The notes below the pieces were generated by a model. It was not told the DNA's origin, searched no databases, and saw only the letters and a program-made list of their open reading frames with translations. A program made the translations under genes and the position numbers. From the NCBI GenBank assembly GCA_025358925.1, contig JANYHT010000037.1, positions 1 to 64,000 of the forward strand: a DNA stretch of 64,000 nt, written 5' to 3'. Below, in pieces: positions 1-3,580 of this stretch. Within the stretch, counting starts at the first letter, position 1. The number at the start of each line of letters is the position of its first letter. Origin of the DNA: Gemmatimonadaceae bacterium (GTDB taxonomy: Bacteria; Gemmatimonadota; Gemmatimonadetes; Gemmatimonadales; Gemmatimonadaceae).

Positions 1-1482
1 TTTAAACGGCAGCGAAATCATAGCCGGCGGTAGCATCATCATACCCATGCTCATGAGCACCGACGCCACCACAGCATCAATGATGATGAACGGCAAATAA
101 ATCACAAAGCCAATTTGAAACGCCGTGCGCAGTTCACTCGCGACAAACGCCGACATCAACACATGCAACGGCACATCGTCGACCGTTTTTGGACGCGGTA
201 GCCGACTCATCTCGACAAACGCGCGAATGTCTGACTGCTTGGTTTGACGCAGCATGAATTCACGCATGGGCTTGACGCCGGTCTTCATCATCTCGACTTG
301 AGTAATCTTCCCATCAAGCCATGGTGTAATGGCGCTCTTGTTCATTTCGCTCAAGGTTGGCGCCATAACGAAACCGGTCAGCAATAGCGCGAGCGCCGAG
401 AGCAACTGCGCAGGTGGCACACTCTGCGTACCCATCGCTTGCTTCAAAAAATGCAACACAATCAGAATGCGCGTAAACCCTGTCATCATCAACAGCAACG
501 TGGGCAACAATGTGAGGAGGCCCATCATCACCACGATGCCAACAGTACCGTTCAAGTGCAGTGCGCCGTCTTTCGTATCGCCCATCTTTACATCCATCTG
601 CGGCATCACTTTCATAAACGCATCCTCGCCAGCCACGGGCGCCAGCGATGCAACACCTGCTTTCCCGTCCGCCGCCGCACTCTTTGACGAATCAAGTTGC
701 ATCGCCGACATCGGACGCTTCGACGCGGCACCACCAGGCGTCACCGATGCACCGTTACCAGTCTTGACCGGCGTCGTTGTTTTCGAAAGCCGCGCACTCC
801 CACGTGTTGTTGGTGGTATGAATACTTGCGGTGCCGTTGGTGCAACGACTGGCACGACGGGCGACACCGCGATTGGCACGACGGGCGACACCACCGGCGG
901 CGCACCTTGCGCACGCAGCACACCCGCCGACGCCTGCACCACCACGATCGCTCCAACAAACACCGCGAGCTTGGTCGCAGCACTCATCGCGCCACCGAGC
1001 ATCGCACGAAACTCGCGATCACTTCGTGCAACATTCGCCGTAACCGCGTAATTCGCGACGAGCGGTTGTTGCGGTCGTTGCGTCACGAGTAATGCCGCCT
1101 CGCGCTCGAGCGATCGCGACATCACCCGACCAAACGCACCAGGTAGAAACTTGGCCAGTGCACTCGTCGCCTCCACACTCGACGCCAATGGCGTCACGAT
1201 AGTACTCGTGCTCAACACACGCTGGCGATCGACCTCATCCAACTCAAACAACGTGCGAATGCCTCCTTCGCCCGTCGACACGGCAATCACCTTCTCGCCA
1301 ACCCGCACCACCGCGAGCCCCATCTTCGGACCAATCGCAATGCGTTGCACGACTTCCACCGGCACGCGCGTTCGCGCACTCAGCACGTTTGGACTGTAGC
1401 GCTTCAGCAACCATAAACTCACGGCGCCAAGCCCCAAGACAAACGCGAGTGCCCCAATCACGCCCAACGCCGAGAGGAGCAT
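1..1482 (-). CDS. fliP: Fused flagellar export protein FliO-FliP (partial, runs off the left edge)
   Basis: An uninterrupted minus-strand frame runs from ATG at 1482 to the window edge (494 codons); an in-frame stop at 1486-1488 fixes the start. Residues 1-165 look like FliO: one N-terminal membrane segment followed by a small soluble domain. Residue 166 (ATG at 987) opens what would normally be FliP's own signal peptide (MSAATKLAVFVGAIVVV), then a proline-rich linker, then the FliP core with GLLTLLPTLLLMMTGFTRI and later membrane segments. FliO and FliP belong to the membrane export gate of the flagellar type III secretion system. I checked every codon and found no stop between the halves. 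A separate FliP could still start at 987. FliQ/FliR would be expected beyond the edge. Confidence 0.9.
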   Translation of the reverse strand, partial: MLLSALGVIGALAFVLGLGAVSLWLLKRYSPNVLSARTRVPVEVVQRIAIGPKMGLAVVRVGEKVIAVSTGEGGIRTLFELDEVDRQRVLSTSTIVTPLASSVEATSALAKFLPGAFGRVMSRSLEREAALLVTQRPQQPLVANYAVTANVARSDREFRAMLGGAMSAATKLAVFVGAIVVVQASAGVLRAQGAPPVVSPVVPIAVSPVVPVVAPTAPQVFIPPTTRGSARLSKTTTPVKTGNGASVTPGGAASKRPMSAMQLDSSKSAAADGKAGVASLAPVAGEDAFMKVMPQMDVKMGDTKDGALHLNGTVGIVVMMGLLTLLPTLLLMMTGFTRILIVLHFLKQAMGTQSVPPAQLLSALALLLTGFVMAPTLSEMNKSAITPWLDGKITQVEMMKTGVKPMREFMLRQTKQSDIRAFVEMSRLPRPKTVDDVPLHVLMSAFVASELRTAFQIGFVIYLPFIIIDAVVASVLMSMGMMMLPPAMISLPFK

Positions 1483-1529: not shown

Positions 1530-1955
1530 TCACGCTGCGTTCGCCGCTGCCATTGCGGTTGCACTCGCGAGGATACGCGTAATGCGCACACCAAAATGCT
1601 CACCCAACACCACCACTTCGCCTTCGGCAAAGCGACGGTCACCGACATAAATATCGATCGGCTCACCAGCCAGTCGATCAAGCTGCATGACTGAACCGCG
1701 ACCAAGTCGCAGAATATCCTGCACGCTCATACTCGTGCGTCCGAGTTCAATCGACACCGGAAGCGTGAGATCGAGCAGCATACCAATCGGCACTTCCGAC
1801 GTACCCGCCAGTGTCTGCTCAAATTCCGAGAACTGTGGTGGACGCGCGGTCATCGCGTGTTCGTCCGACTCGTTCGCGAGCGACGAAACGGGTTGACCAG
1901 CTGCCTTGGCCGCCTGTACGCTCGCCACCAGCGCATCGATTTCTGCGGGGTTCAT
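1530..1955 (-). CDS. fliN: Flagellar motor switch protein FliN
   Basis: A 141-residue protein with a variable N-terminal third and a C-terminal SpoA domain (about residues 60-135, LPVSIELGRTSMSVQDILRL), the hallmark of FliN. FliN forms the lower C-ring with FliM at the cytoplasmic face of the motor and helps dock the FliH-FliI export complex. Its ATG overlaps the fliM stop by four bases (ATGA), so the two are probably translationally coupled. The fliO-fliP start lies 47 bases downstream. Length is normal for the family. Confidence 0.95.
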   Translation of the reverse strand: MNPAEIDALVASVQAAKAAGQPVSSLANESDEHAMTARPPQFSEFEQTLAGTSEVPIGMLLDLTLPVSIELGRTSMSVQDILRLGRGSVMQLDRLAGEPIDIYVGDRRFAEGEVVVLGEHFGVRITRILASATAMAAANAA

Positions 1956-2962
1956 GATCTATTCGTCCGTGTTTCGGGGGCTGACGATGCACTCGGCACC
2001 GCGTCGAGAATGCGGATGGCAAGATTGCCGGCCACACGGCCGGGATGGCCGATAAAACGTTCTTGGCTTCCAGCGCGCACAATCACGCGCGCGTCACGCG
2101 GAATACCGGTGGGCACCACACTGCCAACTTCCAAGCGCGCGATATCGCGCATCGAGAGTTGAAACTCTGGCAGGCGAGCCGTGAGTGGTACTTTGGTTGC
2201 ACGCAACGATGCCTCACTGCGTTGACGCGTGGTCTCGCGTTCTTGTTCGTTCGTGATCAACTGCGCTAACCGTTGTTGCCCGCTTGACGTGAAAAACTTG
2301 TCGAGCACCGAAAAGGGCAAACACAGTAACAGCAAACTGGTCGCGCCACCGGCCGTGATTTCCACGTTGGCGACTAACACCGGGTCTTCGCGATTCACTA
2401 CCTGCAGAATTTCCGGCGACGATTCAAACGCGCTGATGTTGATGTCCATCGGCACGTGATCCTGCCAGATCTCTTGCAGCAGTGATGCGGTACGATCCGC
2501 CACGGAACGAACGGCCATGCGCTCAATCGGCGTCAGTGATCGCGTGAGCGTCGACCCCAATCCTGCGCCACCAAATAAGCGGTCGATCAAAAAATTGGAG
2601 AACTCTGGACCAACATCAATGACACCTTTCTGCCCCGTCCCTTCAACGTCGAATATGAAGGACGAGCACGGCGTCGGGAGCGATAACGTAAATTCGCCAA
2701 ACGAGAATTGCTCGACGCTTTGCAAACGGATTTCGATTTGGCCTCGAACGCGCGACACCAACCACCCTTCGAGATTTTTCACCAGTCGTTCGTACATCGC
2801 TTCTAACGTACGCAGTCGCTCTTTCGACACGCGATGCGGACGACGCCAGTCGTACACTTGCACGTCGATCGCAGCGGCGGTGTGCGGTGTGAGACGCACT
2901 CCACCACCATTACCGCCAAGCAGACGGTCGATATCGTTTTGACTAAGCGTTTCAGAGCTCAT
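1952..2962 (-). CDS. fliM: Flagellar motor switch protein FliM
   Basis: A 336-residue protein. The N-terminus MSSETLSQNDIDRLLGG is the conserved CheY-phosphate-binding peptide of FliM. It is followed by the CheC-like middle domain and a C-terminal SpoA domain (LPEFQLSMRDIARLEVGSVV). In the motor it receives the chemotaxis signal and switches rotation; cheY is in this same window at 34864. It lies between fliL (six-base gap) and fliN (four-base overlap) in one transcription unit. Confidence 0.97.
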   Translation of the reverse strand: MSSETLSQNDIDRLLGGNGGGVRLTPHTAAAIDVQVYDWRRPHRVSKERLRTLEAMYERLVKNLEGWLVSRVRGQIEIRLQSVEQFSFGEFTLSLPTPCSSFIFDVEGTGQKGVIDVGPEFSNFLIDRLFGGAGLGSTLTRSLTPIERMAVRSVADRTASLLQEIWQDHVPMDINISAFESSPEILQVVNREDPVLVANVEITAGGATSLLLLCLPFSVLDKFFTSSGQQRLAQLITNEQERETTRQRSEASLRATKVPLTARLPEFQLSMRDIARLEVGSVVPTGIPRDARVIVRAGSQERFIGHPGRVAGNLAIRILDAVPSASSAPETRTNRS

Positions 2963-2968
2963 GAGCGC

Positions 2969-3580
2969 TTACTGCACCACAAACTGCGGGAAGTACAACC
3001 GCTTCACGGCGCTCTTGCCGAATCGCGCGCAAATCACCGCTTGGATTTCCGTTTTGATCGCTTCACGCGCGGACATGTCCACGAGCTGGTCCACTGTTTT
3101 TGTGCCGAGTGCGGTGAGGATGATGTCGCGGAGTTCGGCGTCGCGGTCTTTGAAATCGGTGGATGCGGTGGGCGTTCCCGTTTCGATGGCGACTGTGAAC
3201 AGCAGGAATCGACCACCGCCGCTTGAGGCAGGATTGAGCACGAGATTTTCGAGCAAGTGAATGGATGGCGCGGACGAATCCTTGCCCTTCTCACCAGCCT
3301 TCTCGCCTTCTTTGCCGGCGGCCTTCTCGCCCGCTTTTTCGCCGCCCTTTGCTCCACTCGCTGCGTGTTCACCCGACGAATCAGCGACACCAGACTCGGC
3401 GTGCGCCGGCGCTGAACGACCCATCTTCTTCGCCACGATCGGTCCGATAAACGATGCGCCGGTGCCGCCGCCGACGGCTAATCCGACGGCGACAAGCGCG
3501 ATCAGAGGCAGTTTGGCTTTGAGCCCGGCTGGTGGCGCGGCGCCTTCGTCAACTACGGGAGTGGGTTCGTGTGCAGCCAT
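2969..3580 (-). CDS. fliL: Flagellar basal body-associated protein FliL
   Basis: A 203-residue protein with a short cytoplasmic tail, one membrane segment at about residues 24-45, a charged Lys/Glu/Gly-rich linker (KGGEKAGEKAAGKEGEKAG, about residues 78-100), and a periplasmic FliL domain ending in the typical 'VKRLYFPQFVVQ'. FliL surrounds the stators and supports torque. It is the first gene of the fliL-fliM-fliN-fliOP unit, and a sigma-54-type promoter lies just upstream (3622-3637). The linker is longer than in enteric FliL, otherwise ordinary. Confidence 0.93.
   Translation of the reverse strand: MAAHEPTPVVDEGAAPPAGLKAKLPLIALVAVGLAVGGGTGASFIGPIVAKKMGRSAPAHAESGVADSSGEHAASGAKGGEKAGEKAAGKEGEKAGEKGKDSSAPSIHLLENLVLNPASSGGGRFLLFTVAIETGTPTASTDFKDRDAELRDIILTALGTKTVDQLVDMSAREAIKTEIQAVICARFGKSAVKRLYFPQFVVQ

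Follow-up and report, generated by a model that had tools for sequence, protein, structure and literature searches.

fliO and fliP form a single gene across class Gemmatimonadetes, probably encoding a precursor that is cleaved into two flagellar export proteins

The flagellar genes fliO and fliP, which are separate in most bacteria, are one gene across the class Gemmatimonadetes, and the fused gene is the normal state there. Judging from its sequence, the gene probably encodes a single precursor that is cut by signal peptidase I into FliO and FliP. We describe the fusion in one genome, its distribution among relatives, the selection acting on the junction, and the internal FliP signal peptide with its conserved candidate cleavage site.

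Results

A single reading frame for FliO and FliP

The window, i.e. the whole stretch of DNA analysed, comprises 64,000 nucleotides of a Gemmatimonadaceae bacterium (assembly GCA_025358925.1, contig JANYHT010000037.1), and its first base is the first base of the contig (G000:C1). A minus-strand reading frame (1..1482) begins with an ATG at 1482, runs free of stop codons for 494 codons and is cut off by the contig edge while still open; about 22 codons are missing up to the expected stop. In the nearest relative (G018) the same frame continues unbroken through to the stop and measures 517 codons from stop to stop. The last approximately 22 FliP codons had no match elsewhere in the window genome assembly; a 651-base probe from the nearest relative matched only 79 bases, at the contig edge. 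FliO and FliP have one match each in the window genome, both inside this frame, and the first-pass annotation, which had read FliO and FliP as one continuous frame with no stop between them, is confirmed by the translation and by the Pfam domains. Both domains thus share one frame, the translation of which is indicated by selection on the junction (see below).

The FliO part consists of a predicted transmembrane segment (residues 6-26, positions 1405..1467, minus strand), assigned from hydropathy and a model helix at residues 2-29, and a small cytoplasmic beta domain (residues 24-87, positions 1222..1413, minus strand; PF04347, E 2.1e-9), which is also supported by model strands. The PF04347 match reached 37.8 bits against a curated cut-off of 22, whereas NCBIfam FliO_TIGR (TIGR03500) gave 36.4, below its cut-off of 55.25, so that the window FliO part is a weak match to that family. 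The FliP domain (residues 319-494, positions 1..528, minus strand; PF00813, E 1.2e-66) is cut off by the contig end. Its PF00813 match scored 224.7 bits (curated cut-off 26.9), and despite the truncation the NCBIfam fliP equivalog TIGR01103 scored 223.1 (cut-off 217.45). The FliP part also matches the solved FliP chains 9k29, 8wk3 and 6s3l with 45-50% identity over about 160-195 columns.

In a structure model of the fusion (mean pLDDT 68), the helix and beta domain of FliO are present, together with a helix that takes in the signal peptide, a tail predicted to be disordered and the FliP fold. In the FliO part, helix 2-29 is followed by four strands at residues 42-80, with a block pLDDT of mostly 63-85 and of 45 in the loop between. 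The predicted structure thus agrees with the FliO core described in PMC12403147, one membrane helix and, after it, a small beta domain. A helix spanning residues 146-191 passes unbroken through the signal peptide at moderate confidence; on contact between FliO and FliP the model gives no reliable information.

The genes upstream, all on the minus strand, are fliN (1530..1955; PF01052, E 2.1e-24), fliM (1952..2962; PF02154, E 2.8e-37) and fliL (2969..3580; PF03748, E 8.9e-15). The fliQ gene of the window genome lies on another contig (G000:C69:1129-1347, L187) and is not preceded by fliP. Indeed, fliQ often does not adjoin fliP in the window genus: by eye, no FliQ frame was seen just 3' of fliP in four same-genus relatives (L004, L005, L013, L020), fliQ lies about 500 bases downstream of fliP in G028, and it follows immediately in G057, a member of another family.

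Distribution of the fusion

A scan of 395 genomes of the phylum detected FliP in 103, and a scan of relatives added two, giving 105 genomes with 106 loci (one genome has two) once two short additional FliP fragments, one in G025 and one in G351, had been removed. One hundred loci belong to class Gemmatimonadetes and six to another class (f11). Nine of the 100 stop at a contig edge before FliO, leaving 91 that reach the FliO part. As the first-pass annotation had advised, the frame was followed through these relatives: FliO and FliP are fused in frame in 86 of the 91 loci (85 genomes), which come from six family codes (f1, f2 and f4-f7). Separate genes with a stop in between, which would have spoken against the fusion, were found in only one genus (g24), whose four loci have overlapping stop and start codons. 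The one remaining locus, in G006, is frame-broken by several single-base indels relative to its neighbour G008, most likely assembly errors. Within the window genus, 21 of 25 FliP-bearing genomes carry the fusion, the other four being three contig-edge cases and G006. All six f11 loci lack FliO beside FliP, and the best FliO match in each of these six genomes is on another contig.

Two further observations concern copy number. G325 carries two fused copies (L096, L097) on two contigs, both in frame. G025 has a second, partial FliP match (G025:C7:448442-448579; profile positions 146-191) about 3.3 kb after its full fused gene, a fragment duplicate.

Outside the phylum, a scan of named genomes was evaluated for its best 80 loci, 79 of them non-Gemmatimonadetes, in a sample that is uneven, with Bacillota foremost. 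Among these matches listed, none of the 79 loci was fused; in 74 FliO lies upstream of FliP, always in another frame or with a stop between, and in five no FliO was seen, two of these being at a contig edge. Plasmid records gave 298 FliP matches, none covering 80% of the query, although FliO is too divergent for such coverage to discriminate. The first-pass view that the fusion is not a standard arrangement therefore holds for the other phyla sampled; it fails within the class, where fusion is normal, and a fusion has also been reported for Buchnera (see Discussion).

The junction and the internal signal peptide

Between the FliO domain and the signal peptide lies a predicted junction helix (residues 146-171, positions 970..1047, minus strand), assigned from the model and from selection on the junction; its aligned motif is the FliO C-terminus in the split genus. 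Over an 81-codon junction the window and its nearest relative differ by 19 synonymous and 7 nonsynonymous changes (dN/dS 0.11), and across 11 fused pairs dN/dS ranges from 0.11 to 0.44, all purifying. GC content at third positions is 0.835 in the junction and 0.844 in FliO. The signal-peptide stretch itself is loosely constrained: its few sites give dN/dS of 0.03-2.32, and in one pair the ratio is undefined. Shuffling left the window junction free of stops in 4% of trials. Among the 86 junctions, about 39 are expected to be open when shuffled, as compared to 86 observed; these 86 are fused by definition, and purifying selection is the fairer evidence. The junction evolves as coding sequence in the fused frame.

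The signal peptide of FliP sits inside the chain, as the first-pass annotation had stated, with its hydrophobic core at residues 172-182 (937..969, minus strand). The FliP boundary given there (residue 166, base 987) corresponds to an internal ATG just before this core. In most of the fused proteins a basic or helical stretch is followed by the hydrophobic core and then by Ala-Gln, which in the window is the proposed signal peptidase I site Ala191-Gln192 (907..912, minus strand). Salmonella FliP is cleaved at the same residue pair (PMC12403130). Ala-Gln occurs at most 18 residues after the core in 78 of the 86 fused proteins, as compared to a mean of 15.9 and a maximum of 28 in 2000 shuffles. 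The other eight lack Ala-Gln in the tested stretch, in which other small-residue sites were seen by eye. As the linkers are Ala-rich, single Ala-Gln sites are weak evidence, and the residue at -3 of the proposed cut in the window is Leu (L-R-A/Q). FliP thus has its signal peptide and Ala-Gln site at an internal instead of an N-terminal position; a cytoplasmic domain followed by an internal signal peptide and a conserved candidate cleavage site is, at the level of sequence, what a precursor split by signal peptidase would possess.

For comparison, N-terminal signal-peptide-like ORFs of the window genus were collected from the window and from 400 kb of the single-contig same-genus genome G029 (L189-L208). 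Ala-Gln was present at similar spacing in 27 of 71 (shuffled mean 7.2, maximum 16). The N-terminal signal peptides of this genus favour Gln after the cut, which resembles the Gln-after-cut rule known for Bacteroidetes (PMC5837995).

Residues 192-309 (556..909, minus strand) form a low-complexity linker rich in Ala, Pro and Val, identified by composition and low model confidence and expected to be periplasmic. Across the class fusions about 66-207 residues separate the hydrophobic core from the FliP domain (two misplaced rows left out). A long, Ala/Pro-rich periplasmic tail of FliP is seen in the window genus, and by eye short motifs within it are kept among relatives (around NGA...RPM...DS and MPQMD). 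Because of this tail of about 118 residues, free FliP is expected at about 34 kDa (32.1 kDa within the window plus about 22 missing residues) rather than at the 25-30 kDa predicted in the first-pass annotation.

Relationship of the split genus

In the four genomes of g24, FliP begins at a GTG that overlaps the FliO stop, and the same kind of signal peptide follows directly. The C-terminal motif of g24 FliO aligns by eye with the junction helix of the fused proteins. In a FliP tree of 107 rows, the neighbour of the split genus is a fused one (SH-aLRT 91), with two changes of state implied. A tree that unites all fused loci in one clade was not rejected by an AU test (p 0.688), and its likelihood was even higher; the FliP tree of 107 rows is therefore unable to show that the split is secondary. 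In a class-only tree of FliO plus FliP (49 of 106 loci, rooted on f2 by choice), g24 stands beside the fused genus g25 (90/85), and both lie in a clade (80/92) from which the fused families f2, f4, f5 and f7 are absent. This position, together with the family code of g24 (f1), favours a later split, and the simplest reading is that the g24 genes arose from the fused state.

Discussion

We propose that the ribosome would make one chain, beginning with the FliO membrane helix, whose N-terminus would be outside, and continuing with the FliO cytoplasmic domain and the junction helix. The FliP signal peptide would then take the chain back across the membrane, to be followed by the disordered periplasmic tail and the FliP channel domain. 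Cleavage by signal peptidase I behind the signal peptide, at the conserved Ala-Gln, would release an ordinary FliP, and FliO would retain the used signal peptide as its second membrane helix. In this way the fusion would put one FliO, the chaperone, beside each FliP, its client, at birth, and cleavage would let FliO leave. We lean, if only slightly, towards the full form of this proposal: that the class makes chaperone and client as one precursor split by signal peptidase, each FliP arising together with a FliO of its own, from which cleavage releases it, that FliO keeps the spent signal peptide, and that one genus has reverted to two genes with coupled translation. A possible benefit would be the equal and co-located synthesis of both proteins. 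The first-pass annotation had assumed that a fusion would lock the two gate parts at a one-to-one ratio. This is not supported: since one precursor would be cut into FliO and FliP, synthesis would be one-to-one and the finished gate not necessarily so.

The fusion could also stay uncleaved, the former signal peptide then serving as an extra membrane helix that tethers FliO to FliP and gives one FliO per FliP in the finished gate. A single conserved frame and the helix predicted, at moderate confidence, to run continuously through the signal peptide (residues 146-191) are compatible with such a tether. We nevertheless consider it unlikely, as Ala-Gln is kept in 78 of 86 proteins within an otherwise fast-changing stretch, and as FliO, which stabilises FliP, is absent from the finished Salmonella basal body (PMC5542435). 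In Salmonella the channel bears a beta-cap formed by the first part of mature FliP (PMC12403130); a tether might hinder this cap, though a tail of about 118 residues intervenes here.

Another conceivable outcome is two products, the full FliO-FliP and extra FliP from an internal start, so that FliP would exceed FliO. The window has two internal ATGs (1002-1000 and 987-985; positions 985..1002, minus strand), which lie 11 and 6 codons ahead of the core. No other candidate FliP start is present within 30 codons of the core, and the Shine-Dalgarno-like matches of the two ATGs measure only 3 and 4 bases. Some possible internal start exists in 73 of the 86 fused loci, window included, 35 of them with a Shine-Dalgarno-like match of at least 4 bases, and the split genus does start FliP at that place, with GTG. 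However, the 31 codons that precede the core show no enrichment of start codons (0.056 per codon, as compared to 0.054 in the downstream linker, over the 86 fused loci). Within 30 codons upstream of the core, ATG, GTG and TTG are all absent in 13 of the 86, and 41 lack an ATG. Shine-Dalgarno-like matches of at least 5 bases precede an internal start in only 3 of 86 loci, though FliO's own start fares little better (7 of 86). We therefore regard two products as quite improbable. As to a separate FliP start at 987, which the first-pass annotation had suggested, the ATG is there and internal initiation is possible in the window genome; such initiation is not conserved.

That an assembly or sequencing error removed a stop codon between fliO and fliP, as the position at a contig edge and the frame-breaking single-base indels in the fused gene of the relative G006 might suggest and as the first-pass annotation had cautioned, is refuted by the same frame in 85 genomes, including the single-contig genomes G020, G028 and G029.

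As compared to the separate fliO and fliP of Salmonella, Bacillus and most bacteria, the precursor proposed here has the same two families in the same order and topology, and Salmonella FliP has the same Ala-Gln residues (PMC12403130); the proposed precursor differs in having one frame and many residues that separate the signal peptide from the channel domain. A fliO-fliP gene fusion in Buchnera sp. APS is stated in PMC2947984, citing Shigenobu 2000. It fits a fusion that PMC8109811 lists Buchnera fliP without fliO and gives 43 kDa for FliP; in the parts covered, neither this paper nor PMC3246468 discusses a fliO-fliP fusion. Buchnera, known to us in this respect from the published statement, is thus alike in having FliO and FliP in one gene. 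It is a reduced gammaproteobacterial symbiont, whereas the fusion in Gemmatimonadetes is class-wide in an unrelated group, with an internal signal peptide conserved within Gemmatimonadetes. A survey of FliO in 30,238 genomes (PMC12403147) does not contain the term 'gemmatimonad' in its main text and, in the parts covered, supplements aside, does not describe a FliO-FliP fusion. A search of one literature collection found no published report of the fusion in Gemmatimonadetes. The fusion as a kind is already known from one symbiont; as far as these searches show, its breadth is new, as are the internal signal peptide conserved in the class and the genus with split genes.

An engineered FliR-FlhB fusion in Salmonella, cited in PMC5542437, likewise joins two export-gate membrane proteins in one chain. 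Its partners differ from those described here. No cleavable signal peptide is known to stand between them. The fbcH cytochrome b/c1 precursor of Bradyrhizobium is cut at an internal signal peptide into two proteins. It resembles what we propose for FliO-FliP, namely a bacterial precursor from which signal peptidase makes two proteins; the proteins themselves are unrelated.

The fused class together with its apparently re-split genus constitutes a natural experiment on how FliO helps FliP, be it as chaperone, as ring scaffold or transiently. A need for cleavage would mean that FliO has to leave the gate; without such a need, the gate can tolerate five FliO copies inside it. The natural fusion also supplies paired FliO and FliP sequences for locating their contact surface, and it matters for surveys of genomes in which FliO and FliP are each counted as a protein of their own.
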